In this document: positions 45,105-50,479 of the stretch, piece after piece
Numbering within the stretch: the stretch's first letter is position 1
How the letters are laid out: every line of letters starts with the position of its first letter
Origin: Asticcacaulis tiandongensis
GTDB lineage: Bacteria > Pseudomonadota > Alphaproteobacteria > Caulobacterales > Caulobacteraceae
DNA length: 64,000 bases
Reading direction: 5' to 3'
Assembly (NCBI RefSeq): GCF_006475605.1
Contig: NZ_ML636837.1
Coordinates: 203,468 to 267,467 of the forward strand
The notes under the pieces: generated by a model
Told to the model about the DNA's origin: nothing
The model's database searches: none
Seen by the model: only the letters and a program-made list of their open reading frames with translations
Made by a program: the position numbers and the translations under genes

Positions 45105-45746
45105 ATGACCCTGAGCCTGAACGTCCAAGATATCGCCCTGAAAAAGGGTCACAAGCTGTTGGTTTCTAACGTAAACCTGACGGCAACCAGTGGCGACGCT
45201 ATCAGTCTTACGGGGGCAAACGGTGTCGGAAAAACCACGTTTCTGCGCTGTCTCGCCGGCTTCACCCCGCCTCATCGCGGTAGTATTCAGCTAGTTGAAA
45301 ATGACTCGCAACTTGACGGCGTTAGTATAATTGAGAATTACTCTCATTATCTTGGCCATGCCGAAGCGTTAAACCCCGCCCGTCGCGTCGATCAGGAGCT
45401 TCAATTTCATTGCGATTACCTCGGTGGAACAGATTTAAGCCTGCGCGAAGCCATAGCGCGGCTGCGTCTCGGTGCGCTTCTGGATCTTGAAACCCGCATG
45501 CTCTCCGCTGGCCAGCGTAAGCGGGTTTCACTGGCGCGTCTTCTGATGGTGCCGCGCCCCATTTGGCTTCTGGATGAAGTCTTGTCACCCCTCGACATCG
45601 CCCACCGCGCCCTGATGGTCGACATCATGCAGGCGCACCTGTCCGGTGGCGGCATTATGGTCTGCGCCGTCCACGACCCCTTGCCGTTTGACACTCGCGC
45701 CCTGCACCTGACCCGCCCCTCACTTGAGGAGATAGGAAATGCTTAA
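45105..45746 (+). CDS. ccmA: Haem ABC exporter ATPase CcmA
   Basis: ATPase of the CcmABCD complex, which releases holo-CcmE during cytochrome c maturation. 213 residues. Walker A GANGVGKT (37-44), signature LSAGQRKRVSLARLL and Walker B PIWLLDEVLSPLD are present. The first 300 bases, especially 45230-45370, are more AT-rich than the flanking genes. It overlaps ccmB by eight bases. The gene opens a five-gene ccm operon. Confidence 0.95.
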   Translation: MTLSLNVQDIALKKGHKLLVSNVNLTATSGDAISLTGANGVGKTTFLRCLAGFTPPHRGSIQLVENDSQLDGVSIIENYSHYLGHAEALNPARRVDQELQFHCDYLGGTDLSLREAIARLRLGALLDLETRMLSAGQRKRVSLARLLMVPRPIWLLDEVLSPLDIAHRALMVDIMQAHLSGGGIMVCAVHDPLPFDTRALHLTRPSLEEIGNA

Positions 45747-46407
45747 GGCGTCTCTCGCCCTTCTGAAACGCGATATCGGCCTGTCATGGTCACGCGGTGG
45801 CGGCCCGATTCTGGCGGTCGGATTCTATCTGACCCTGATGGCCATGATCCCCTTAAGCCTCGGCCCGGAAACGCAAGTGTTAGCCCGCGTCGCCCCCGGT
45901 CTGACATGGTTGTCTCTGGCTCTGGCCTCGCTTTTGTCTCTGGAACGCCTGTTTGAGCGTGACTATGAAGATGGTCTGTTCGACATTCTGCGCGGCGGCA
46001 AGTTGCCGCTTGAGGCCATTGCCCTGATCAAATGTCTGGCGCAGTGGATCGGCACAGGCCTGATACTTGCCCTTCTGACGCCAATGGTCATGATCATTCT
46101 GGGCGCACCGGTTGAAGCCGCAGGCCTGAGTCTTGTGGCTGCCGTACTTGGCTCCTTAAGCTTTGCCCTGATTGGCGGCGTCGGCGCTTCCTTGAGCCTC
46201 GGCAGCCGTAAGGGCGGCGTACTGATTGCCCTTCTGGTCTTACCCTTCTATGTACCGCCGGTGATCTTTGGTGCCGGACTGATGCAGGCCTATCTCACCG
46301 GCGCACCGATCACTCAGGCGCTTGGTCTGCTGGGGGCCTATAGCCTGTTTGCCCTGGCCCTGTGCCCGATTGCCACCGGCGCGGCCTTGCGCAGCGCGCT
46401 TAACTGA
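45739..46407 (+). CDS. ccmB: Haem exporter membrane subunit CcmB
   Basis: Six-segment inner-membrane subunit of the Ccm ABC complex, 222 residues. The opening SLALLKRDIGLSWSRGGGP, the LERLFERDYEDGLFDIL block and the ending ATGAALRSALN are typical of the family. The last ten codons, including the stop, recur in frame immediately downstream with only synonymous changes (46414-46443), which suggests the gene end was rebuilt by recombination. ccmC follows after 74 bases. Confidence 0.95.
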   Translation: MLKASLALLKRDIGLSWSRGGGPILAVGFYLTLMAMIPLSLGPETQVLARVAPGLTWLSLALASLLSLERLFERDYEDGLFDILRGGKLPLEAIALIKCLAQWIGTGLILALLTPMVMIILGAPVEAAGLSLVAAVLGSLSFALIGGVGASLSLGSRKGGVLIALLVLPFYVPPVIFGAGLMQAYLTGAPITQALGLLGAYSLFALALCPIATGAALRSALN

Positions 46408-46413
46408 ATACAA

Positions 46414-46443
46414 GGTGCGGCACTTCGTAGCGCGCTCAACTAA
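46414..46443 (+). pseudogene. Duplicated 3' end of ccmB (recombination scar)
   Basis: Ten codons encode GAALRSALN plus stop, exactly as the end of ccmB at 46378-46407, with a period of 36 bases in the same frame. Seven of the ten codons differ (for example TTG/CTT, CGC/CGT, TGA/TAA) and every change is silent. A fresh tandem duplication would be identical. Silent divergence implies that the two copies evolved as ccmB ends in different lineages. It is the probable tail of a displaced ccmB allele. Confidence 0.75.
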
Positions 46444-46481
46444 ATCTTGTCGATTCCCGCATAAGGATTTATGTCACCCCT

Positions 46482-47213
46482 ATGATCAGTTGGCTGGCAA
46501 ACCCTGAGCGCTTCTCGCGCATTTTCACGCCGATCCGCCCCTATGTTGGTGTGGCGGCGGCACTGATGTTTATGTGGGGCCTTTACCTGTGCTTTGCCTC
46601 TCCCGAAGACTATCAGCAAGGCGATACGGTGCGCATCATGTACATGCACGTGCCCGCCGCGTGGATGGCCATGGCCGTTTACCTGATCATGGGGATTGCC
46701 AGCTTTTTCGGCCTCATCTGGCGGCATTCGCTGGCCGATGTTGCCGCCAAGGCCGCAGCCCCGATTGGTGCGGCTTTTACCGCCCTGTCACTTCTGACCG
46801 GTTCACTTTGGGGGCGTCCGATGTGGGGCACATGGTGGGAATGGGACGGGCGCATGACTTCGGTGCTGGTGCTGTTTCTGTTTTATATCGGCTATATGGC
46901 GCTTCATGCCGCCATTGAGGACGAAACCCGCGCCGCCAAATCCACCGCCATTCTGGCCATGATCGGTCTGGTCAATCTGCCGGTCATCAAGTTTTCGGTC
47001 GACTGGTGGAATACCCTTCATCAGGGCGCATCCGTTGTCCGCGCCGATGGCCCCAGCATCGCGCCGGACATGTTATGGCCGCTTCTGGTCATGGCTCTGG
47101 CCTTCAAGCTTTTGTTCGTCTGGCTGTGGCTGCTGCGCATTGATACCGAACTCATGGCGCGCCGTTATCGCGCCCTGCGCGCCCGCCTGAGTTTCGCCGA
47201 GGAGGGTAACTGA
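46482..47213 (+). CDS. ccmC: Haem handling protein CcmC
   Basis: Inner-membrane protein that loads haem on CcmE, 243 residues with six hydrophobic segments. The tryptophan-rich WWD-type motif RPMWGTWWEWDGRMTSVLVL and two candidate haem-ligand histidines (YMHVPAAWM and NTLHQGASV) are clear. The start ATG has no strong ribosome site. The gap to ccmB holds the ccmB-end duplicate. Its stop overlaps the ccmD start (TGATG). Confidence 0.95.
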   Translation: MISWLANPERFSRIFTPIRPYVGVAAALMFMWGLYLCFASPEDYQQGDTVRIMYMHVPAAWMAMAVYLIMGIASFFGLIWRHSLADVAAKAAAPIGAAFTALSLLTGSLWGRPMWGTWWEWDGRMTSVLVLFLFYIGYMALHAAIEDETRAAKSTAILAMIGLVNLPVIKFSVDWWNTLHQGASVVRADGPSIAPDMLWPLLVMALAFKLLFVWLWLLRIDTELMARRYRALRARLSFAEEGN

Positions 47214-47920: not shown

Positions 47921-47943
47921 AGGCCAGAAAACAGGCCTTTTTA
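47921..47943 (+). terminator. Terminator of the ccm operon
   Basis: AGGCC and GGCCT form a short 5-bp stem with an eight-base loop, followed by TTTTT, 14 bases past the ccmG stop. It overlaps the end of the opposing DUF1330 gene. The short stem makes it moderate. Confidence 0.55.
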
Positions 47944-48228
47944 CACGCCCTCGACCACCACCATGTCAAACTCGGCGGCATTCAGACGATGCTCGCGGGC
48001 GGCCTGATATTCCGGCGAATTGTAATAGGCCAGAGCGTCCTCGTAGGAATCGAACTCAAGCACGGTCACGCGGGCATGGCCACGGCCTTCAAGCACCTGC
48101 GAACGACCGCCGCGGGCCACTGGGCGCATACCGTGCTTTTCCGCCGCAGGCTTGGTGCCTTCGACGTATTTGGCAAAGGATTCAGGGTCGGTCACACGCG
48201 ATTGCGCGATGATGTAGCCTTTGGGCAT
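47941..48228 (-). CDS. DUF1330-family protein
   Basis: A 95-residue dimeric alpha/beta-barrel protein. Family marks are MPKGYIIAQSRVTDPESFAKYVEGTKP, the RSQVLEG strand and the FDSYEDALAYYNSPEYQAA block. Function in the family is unknown. The ATG at 48228, seven bases after CGGAG, fits the family start better than one six codons upstream. It is divergent from dapF across 99 bases. Confidence 0.92.
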   Translation of the reverse strand: MPKGYIIAQSRVTDPESFAKYVEGTKPAAEKHGMRPVARGGRSQVLEGRGHARVTVLEFDSYEDALAYYNSPEYQAAREHRLNAAEFDMVVVEGV

Positions 48229-48327
48229 GAGGAAGCTCCGTAACAAAAATAACGCGATGCCCTCCCCTTAACCGGAAATTTTACAAAAGCCTACATTTTA
48301 CCCACGTTTGCGACTATATAGACGGCC

Positions 48328-49167
48328 ATGACACGCCCCTTTCTAAAGATGAATGGCCTCGGAAATGATTTCGTTGTCGTTGATGCCCGCCAGACCGGCT
48401 TCAGCCCCACCCCTGATCAGGTGCGGGCATGGGGCAAACGCGACGGCGGCGTGGGCTTTGATCAGCTTATTTCCATCGAGTCCGCAGACGGCAATGACGC
48501 CTTTATGCGGGTGTGGAATTCCGACGGCTCAACGGTCGAGACCTGCGGCAATGCCCTGCGCTGTGTCACGTGGGTACTCGATAAGGACTCCCCCAATAGC
48601 GAACTGACCATCGACACGCTCGGCGGGGCCACCACCGCCCGCATGCTGGAAACTAGTGCCTCGGACGGCATCGCCAGCGTCGATATGGGCAAGCCGCGCC
48701 TTGAATGGTCGCATATCCCCCTGTCCGAAGAAATGAATACCGAACGGCTTGAACTTCAGGTCGGGCCGATTGATGCGCCGCTGTATCACACGCCGGTGGC
48801 CGTCAGCATGGGCAATCCGCATGTGGTGTTTTTCGTTGATGACATTACCACCGTCGATGTCGAACGCACCGGCAGCCTGATCGAGCATCACCCCCTGTTC
48901 CCCGAAGGCGTGAACGTCGAATTTGCCCAAATCATCGACCGCAACACCATCCGTATGCGCGTCTGGGAACGCGGTGCCGGTATCACCAAGGCCTGCGGCA
49001 CCGGTGCCTGCGCTACCCTTGTGGCTGCTGCGCGTCGCGGTCTGACCGACCGCCATGCCCATGTCATTATGGACGGCGGCCCGCTACATATTCTGTGGCG
49101 TTCGGACGATCATGTCATCATGACGGGGCCTGTAGCCCTTGAGTTTGAAGGCACGCTCAATGGCTGA
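48328..49167 (+). CDS. dapF: Diaminopimelate epimerase
   Basis: Converts LL- to meso-diaminopimelate for peptidoglycan and lysine. 279 residues. The catalytic cysteine pair is visible: Cys73 in ETCGNALRC and Cys223 in KACGTGACATL. The MNGLGNDFVVVD opening is typical. It starts a dapF-mtaB-ftsY-yciB run on the plus strand. Its stop overlaps the mtaB start by eight bases. Confidence 0.97.
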   Translation: MTRPFLKMNGLGNDFVVVDARQTGFSPTPDQVRAWGKRDGGVGFDQLISIESADGNDAFMRVWNSDGSTVETCGNALRCVTWVLDKDSPNSELTIDTLGGATTARMLETSASDGIASVDMGKPRLEWSHIPLSEEMNTERLELQVGPIDAPLYHTPVAVSMGNPHVVFFVDDITTVDVERTGSLIEHHPLFPEGVNVEFAQIIDRNTIRMRVWERGAGITKACGTGACATLVAAARRGLTDRHAHVIMDGGPLHILWRSDDHVIMTGPVALEFEGTLNG

Positions 49168-50479
49168 CGGTACACCACATGTTCACGACGAAGCGGTCAC
49201 CGCCGAACCGCCGGAAACGCCCGTCGGTCTGCAAACCGGCGTTGAAGTCGTCACCTTTGGTTGCCGCCTCAACAGCTACGAATCCGAACTGATCCGTAAA
49301 ACGGCGGCGGGTGATGGGCTTGATGGTGCGATCATCTTCAACACCTGCGCCGTGACCAACGAGGCCGTGCGTCAGGCACGTCAGGCTATACGCCGGGCCC
49401 GCAAGGAAAACCCCGACGCCCGCCTGATCGTCACGGGCTGCGCCGCCCAGACCGATCCTGAAACCTTTGCCAATATGGGCGAGGTCGATTTCATCATTGG
49501 TAACGGCGATAAATCGACCAAGGGGGCCTATGCCCTGAACCCCGACAGCACTCGGGTTGTCGTCAATGATATTTTCTCCGTGCGTGAAACCGCTGGCCAC
49601 CTGATTGATGGCCTGAAAGATCGCGCCCGTGCCTATGTTGAGGTGCAGAACGGCTGCGACCACCGCTGCACCTTCTGCATCATCCCTTACGGGCGCGGCA
49701 ATTCACGCTCGGCAGCGTCCGGCGACATCGTCGGCCAGATTTCGCGTCTGGTGAATGAGGGCTATAACGAGATCGTTCTAACCGGCGTTGACCTGACCTC
49801 ATGGGGACAGGATCTGCCCGGCACGCCACAGCTTGGTCATCTGGTGACGCGTATCCTTAAGCACGTGCCCGACCTGAAACGCCTCAGATTGTCATCCATT
49901 GATGCCGCCGAAATCGATGATGTGCTCCTGCGCGCCTTCGCCGAAGAAGAACGCCTCGCCCCCTATCTGCATCTTAGCCTGCAACATGGCGATGACCTGA
50001 TCCTCAAGCGCATGAAGCGTCGCCACCTCAGGGCCGACGCTATCAATCTGGCGCGCACGGTGCGTGACCTGCGCCCCGACATTGCCTATGGTGCCGACAT
50101 CATTGCCGGTTTTCCAACCGAGACCGAAGAACACTTTCAGAATACGCTCGATCTGGTCGATGAGTGCGGCCTCAGCTTTCTGCATGTGTTTCCGTTCAGC
50201 CCGCGCCCGCAAACACCCGCCGCGAAAATGCCCCAGCATCCGCGCCCACTGATCAAATCCCGTGCTGAACGTCTGAGGGCCAAGGGCGCCGAAGCCCTGA
50301 CCCAGCACCTTGACCGGCAGGTCGGTCGCACCGTCGAAGCGATCATCGAAAAGGCCGGTTTTGCCCGCGGGCCTGATTTCACCGAAATCCTCTTTGAGGG
50401 TGAAGCCCCCATAGGCGGGCTTGCGCCATTACGGATTACAGGCCATGACGGTAAGCGCGCTCACGCTGTACGGGCCTGA
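49160..50479 (+). CDS. mtaB: tRNA t6A37 methylthiotransferase MtaB
   Basis: Radical SAM enzyme that adds a methylthio group to t6A37 in tRNAs. 439 residues. The N-terminal cluster cysteines lie in TFGCRLNSYESE, FNTCAVTN and VTGCAAQ, and the radical SAM cluster in GCDHRCTFC. A TRAM-like C-terminal part follows. The NSYESE wording separates MtaB from MiaB. I chose the ATG at 49160, seven bases after GAAGG, which overlaps dapF by eight bases. Confidence 0.94.
   Translation: MADGTPHVHDEAVTAEPPETPVGLQTGVEVVTFGCRLNSYESELIRKTAAGDGLDGAIIFNTCAVTNEAVRQARQAIRRARKENPDARLIVTGCAAQTDPETFANMGEVDFIIGNGDKSTKGAYALNPDSTRVVVNDIFSVRETAGHLIDGLKDRARAYVEVQNGCDHRCTFCIIPYGRGNSRSAASGDIVGQISRLVNEGYNEIVLTGVDLTSWGQDLPGTPQLGHLVTRILKHVPDLKRLRLSSIDAAEIDDVLLRAFAEEERLAPYLHLSLQHGDDLILKRMKRRHLRADAINLARTVRDLRPDIAYGADIIAGFPTETEEHFQNTLDLVDECGLSFLHVFPFSPRPQTPAAKMPQHPRPLIKSRAERLRAKGAEALTQHLDRQVGRTVEAIIEKAGFARGPDFTEILFEGEAPIGGLAPLRITGHDGKRAHAVRA

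Follow-up and report, generated by a model that had tools for sequence, protein, structure and literature searches.

How does a gene come to have two ends? In the 64-kb stretch of the Asticcacaulis tiandongensis genome analysed here (the window), the stop-end of ccmB, the gene for the membrane subunit of a haem exporter, occurs twice, with the two copies in frame and offset by 36 bases. The explanation that we favour, and think fairly probable, is a fairly recent recombination scar in which the ccmB ends of two lineages were joined. We infer its horizontal origin, the out-of-register join and the recent date from the comparisons given below, most of them with 24 other Asticcacaulis genomes (G001 onward, the A. 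tiandongensis genome being G000).

The doubled end of ccmB

The repeat and its spacer, as read from the window sequence, are as follows.

46378..46407, + strand: copy 1, the last nine codons of ccmB and its stop (GGC GCG GCC TTG CGC AGC GCG CTT AAC TGA)
46408..46413, + strand: spacer of six bases, ATACAA
46414..46443, + strand: copy 2, beyond the ccmB stop (GGT GCG GCA CTT CGT AGC GCG CTC AAC TAA)

Both copies translate to GAALRSALN followed by a stop. They are identical at 23/30 bases, and the seven differences are all silent, the change of stop from TGA to TAA included. A first-pass annotation of this DNA had described an in-frame repeat with only silent changes; its coordinates, frame and silence hold, and its count of seven differing codons becomes six (five sense codons and the stop), seven being the number of bases. 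The likeness begins at the GGC/GGT codon and ends two bases past the stop, the longest exact in-register run common to both copies is eight bases, and the palindrome AGCGCGCT is present in both. The next best ungapped matches on either strand of the window are 20/30 for copy 1 and 18/30 for copy 2; with copy 1 reaching only 20/30 elsewhere, chance is excluded as the source of the repeat.

To place the repeat among other gene ends, we took ORFs (open reading frames) of 100 codons or more and looked in the 600 bp downstream of each for a second copy of its stop-end, matching at 22/30 bases or more, or at 8/10 letters or more of the translation. Across the window and a further 395 kb from elsewhere, together ∼14% of the genome, the ccmB end was the single case among 408 ORFs, and the ccm loci of the 24 relatives gave none among 280. 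The first-pass annotation had proposed looking for both copies in relatives; all 24 genomes have one ccmB each, and in none is it followed by a second ccmB end. A second ccmB elsewhere in the A. tiandongensis genome was rejected as the source of the repeat, the gene having a single match there.

In the codons just before copy 1 (46360-46377) CcmB reads L-C-P-I-A-T, where the final residue is M instead of T in every one of the 24 relatives. This change of ATG to ACC directly adjoins the 5' side of the repeated stretch.

Two ends that probably diverged separately

A 36-bp tandem duplication in the organism's own lineage, with later drift of both copies, would account for the exact offset and the adjacency in one parsimonious step. 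Copy 2, however, lies past the stop, where a drifting duplicate would take changes of every kind, and the probability that 7/7 differences are silent is 0.002-0.006 by a simple estimate. When duplication with a free second copy was simulated at six rates (5,000 runs each), seven or more differences, all silent, arose in at most 1/5,000 runs at each rate. The spacer also lacks the flank expected of a duplicated unit, as it matches the six bases 3' of copy 2 at only 2/6 positions. An old tandem duplication is therefore very unlikely, and the two copies most likely accumulated their differences as functional gene ends in separate genomes, in agreement with the first-pass annotation, which had argued for two separately diverged ends over slippage. 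Since copy 2 has no residue-changing difference, their joining appears to be fairly recent.

Selection on copy 2 would also keep its changes silent if ribosomes read through the TGA of copy 1, giving a fraction of CcmB the repeated tail X-I-Q-GAALRSALN; the 36 bp keep the frame, and selection on such an extension would account for the silent-only changes. We consider this barely plausible. Two further candidates were rejected. An in-frame, two-copy C terminus that later gained a stop does not fit TGA ATA CAA, which is unlike the conserved I-A-M codons of the relatives, and RNA structure as the cause of the repeat does not fit a folding stability that is not unusual (z of 0.61 and 0.15).

Two diverged ends would likewise be produced by an assembly chimera, in which ccmB ends of two strains were joined in the contig. 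The site, however, is deep inside its contig (∼250 kb into 757 kb) in a genome of 22 contigs with 99.98% completeness and 0.34% contamination, and a longest common run of eight bases is too short for an assembler join, making a chimera unlikely.

The palindrome common to both copies would suit a footprint left by an integrative element, for which the 3' end of ccmB was the attachment site and which brought in a new end for the gene before being lost by deletion. Integration into genes can leave element-supplied, silently different 3' ends, as at icd in Escherichia coli. The ccmB locus resembles such sites in having a silently different replacement end followed by a displaced original end; it differs from them in that no element lies between the ends, only the six-base spacer, and the neighbours tested are acnA, the ccm genes and dapF. 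We regard such a footprint as highly improbable.

Copy 2 stands in the ancestral position

If the two ends came from different genomes, one of them should be native to the place. The features of the operon that bear on this are listed here; by NCBIfam the genes of the locus are ccmA, ccmB, ccmC, ccmD and a DsbE-type ccmG.

45105..45746, + strand: ccmA, ATP-binding subunit, overlapping the start of ccmB (TIGR01189, 161.9 bits, cut-off 131.6)
45739..46407, + strand: ccmB, haem exporter membrane subunit, ending at copy 1 (NCBIfam TIGR01190 equivalog, 181 bits, cut-off 156.2)
46444..46481, + strand: ccmB-ccmC gap of 38 bp, ancestral by comparison with relatives
46482..47213, + strand: ccmC (TIGR01191, 269 bits)

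For the comparison we divided the relatives into clade X (G001, G005, G010, G011, G015, G017, G019 and G023), clade Y (G002, G004, G008, G012 and G013) and an outer group Z made up of the remaining 11. The ccmB-ccmC gap is 39-45 bp long in 10 of the 23 relatives with ccmC in the locus (G020 is without it) and ranges from 69 to 691 bp in the other 13. These lengths are taken up to where the protein match begins, which for clade X is three bases past the ATG. Each of the ten relatives with the short gap has a CTTGTC- or CTTGCC-like word three to four bases 3' of the ccmB stop; the window has CTTGTCG two bases past the stop of copy 2. BLAST further matches 46444-46558 to G004 from the second base after the G004 ccmB stop. 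Because the bases following copy 2 align with the gap that in relatives comes right after the ccmB stop, copy 2 occupies the ancestral position, and 36 bp have been added. Copy 2 is thus probably the resident ccmB tail left behind and copy 1 the incoming end, which agrees with the earlier proposal that the native tail was left as a scar.

The affinities of the two tails are in line with this assignment. All eight clade X tails resemble copy 1 more than copy 2, the best being G015 with 28/30 bases, and four of the five clade Y tails resemble copy 2 more (G002 by three bases; G008, G012 and G013 by one; not G004). The group Z tails are divided, five being nearer to copy 1 and five to copy 2, with one tie. 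Since species markers place A. tiandongensis with clade Y, as described below, the leaning of copy 2 toward Y suits a resident tail. Across the final 22 codons of ccmB the closer clade is X (77.1 versus 68.2% of bases), and across the first 25 codons of ccmC it is Y (78.1 versus 65.0%).

How much of the operon may have been exchanged

The first-pass annotation had proposed the arrival of an entire ccmA-ccmB segment and had predicted that the trees of these genes would disagree with that of ccmC. Such a block, replacing the resident genes, leaving the tail and coming from a lineage that can be told apart among the Asticcacaulis sampled, is a special case of the scar that we favour. Concatenated rpoB, gyrA and dnaK place A. 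tiandongensis with clade Y (support 95/92) and reject its grouping with X (p of 0.014). Single trees agree for acnA (88/81), gyrA (92/93), dnaK (58/69) and ccmC (96/93), and rpoB alone leaves the placement undecided; for ccmC, grouping with X has a p of 0.037, or 0.051 under the mixture model. The ccmA tree, on the other hand, joins A. tiandongensis to X with 99/98 (mixture 100/99) and rejects Y (p of 0.029, mixture 0.013), and concatenated ccmA and ccmB join it to X with 98/98 (p of 0.078 for Y). Copy 1, closest to a clade X tail, and the change of affinity between the end of ccmB and the start of ccmC point the same way. These p-values, from approximately unbiased (AU) tests, are optimistic, as clades X and Y were named after the trees had been seen, and the concatenated markers do not recover X as a single clade. 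Rows left out of the trees are G004 for rpoB and G018 for dnaK (each in two pieces) and G020 for ccmC and ccmG; the acnA row of G018 is partial.

The ccmA conflict may belong either to clade Y or to A. tiandongensis, and topology alone cannot decide between them, because the ccmA of clade Y is itself odd. On average it is 59.5% identical to the ccmA of Z and 53.7% identical to that of X, the reverse of acnA (83.1/88.4), ccmB (75.9/77.5), ccmC (75.6/83.6) and ccmG (50.6/56.7). In trees without A. tiandongensis, X and Y group with 53/84 in ccmA against 98-100 in ccmB, ccmC and acnA. An X+Y grouping is rejected for ccmA with a p of 0.0019 in a test that left A. tiandongensis out of the clade, which is no proof of a transfer of the clade Y gene. 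The gene may have been replaced in clade Y. Identity of the A. tiandongensis CcmA to the three groups is about equal (54.8 to X, 53.4 to Y, 54.8 to Z). The predicted conflict is therefore there for ccmA against ccmC and is without support in ccmB, so that a foreign block spanning both genes is possible but doubtful.

Several results weigh against the scar as we read it, or against its wider extent. In the ccmB tree A. tiandongensis joins X with only 62/36 (the 98/97 in that tree is the support of clade X itself), and grouping with Y is compatible (p-AU of 0.42, mixture 0.33). CcmB identity is 81.4 to Y and 79.1 to X, and at the 38 CcmB columns where the X and Y consensus differ, A. tiandongensis has the Y residue in 17, the X residue in 12 and neither in 9. 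To the right of the scar, ccmG leans to X (85/87, with a nonsignificant p of 0.147 for Y), extending the disagreement to that side as well. The tail affinities are drawn from 30 bases and from related genomes. No donor lineage was found among the relatives, whose nearest CcmB is 83% identical, and in a search of genome contigs for CcmB 14/16 loci were from Asticcacaulis and none was closer than 83%. Composition as a sign of foreign ccmA and ccmB was rejected, both genes lying within the range of the window ORFs: G+C content at third codon positions (GC3) is 62 for ccmA and 68 for ccmB, compared to a mean of 65.6 (standard deviation [SD], 4.5; 51 window ORFs), and the codon scores are -1.19 and -1.13, compared to a mean of -1.05 (SD, 0.09; lowest, -1.31). 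An AT-rich start of ccmA had also been read as compatible with transfer. GC3 is indeed 55 in the first half of the gene and 68 in the second, but it changes in the same direction in 22/24 relatives (60/80 in G017, 57/76 in G016), and a low-GC start so widely shared is no evidence of transfer.

The foreign tract may be short, or may derive from an unsampled close lineage. With a donor on the unsampled branch of A. tiandongensis itself, or with a tract of a few dozen bases, no tree signal would be expected.

A possible route

For the recombination scar that we favour, we propose that DNA with the ccmB end (copy 1) of another Asticcacaulis-like lineage recombined into the operon. The left join would have been made by ordinary homology somewhere upstream, in ccmB or beyond, and the right join out of register; the final 30 bp of the resident gene (copy 2) would thereby have been kept after the new stop and before ccmC. 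Of the two junctions, the right one is out of register by 36 bp and the left one was not located. Genes for Ku, a ComEC-type protein and DprA are present in the genome, making end joining and DNA uptake possible; ComEC-type and DprA matches also occur in 10/14 control genomes and so carry little weight.

Such a route would be like homology-facilitated illegitimate recombination, known from transformation in Acinetobacter, Streptococcus and Pseudomonas and from conjugation in E. coli. There, one end of the incoming DNA joins by homology and the other illegitimately (PMC3240628; PMC5361080). At ccmB, by contrast, the mechanism is read from one junction, no donor having been found; the misjoin amounts to only 36 bp, and the two ends are homologous, each being an end of ccmB. 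A second parallel comes from Vibrio type VI secretion system (T6SS) effector and Rhs loci, where incoming 3' modules push the resident gene end downstream and it is kept as a remnant (PMC5361080). A displaced resident 3' end would likewise stay downstream at ccmB, but what is left behind in Vibrio is an immunity gene or the 3' region of an effector, in competition loci that change fast, whereas ccmB is a cytochrome-maturation gene and its remnant is 30 bp. A literature search named no scar of this kind, nor ccmB; this does not prove that none has been published.

Other features of the locus

The ccmB-ccmC gap tolerates insertions. In G002, G008, G011, G012 and G015 (loci L067, L065, L063, L066 and L069) it holds inserts that, judged by eye, resemble palindromes and repeats, and in eight further genomes it measures 409-691 bp. 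At 46471-46485, a four-codon mini-ORF (M-S-P-L-stop) overlaps the start of ccmC as ATGA; one of similar form, M/V-x-x-x-stop, stands 5' of ccmC in 18/23 other Asticcacaulis loci, and G016 and G022 have an upstream ATG in frame with ccmC. The mini-ORF may serve translational coupling or be an old ccmC start.

The genes after ccmG (47941-50479) have no match at an E value of 1e-5 when compared to the ccm loci of the 24 relatives, each covering 9-13.5 kb. Among them dapF was identified by NCBIfam, and others we take to be yciI-like and mtaB-like. Among the genomes compared, A. tiandongensis seems to be alone in having this gene neighbourhood to the right of ccmG.

Significance

In-place gene replacement often leaves no visible join, and a 36-bp scar with silent differences only would mark one to the base. 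It would show that sequence alone is able to reveal such a join, and scanning for silently different repeated stop-ends could count such events across genomes. As a single case, the doubled ccmB end would be a small trace of ordinary gene exchange, and the known biology of CcmB is unchanged by it.
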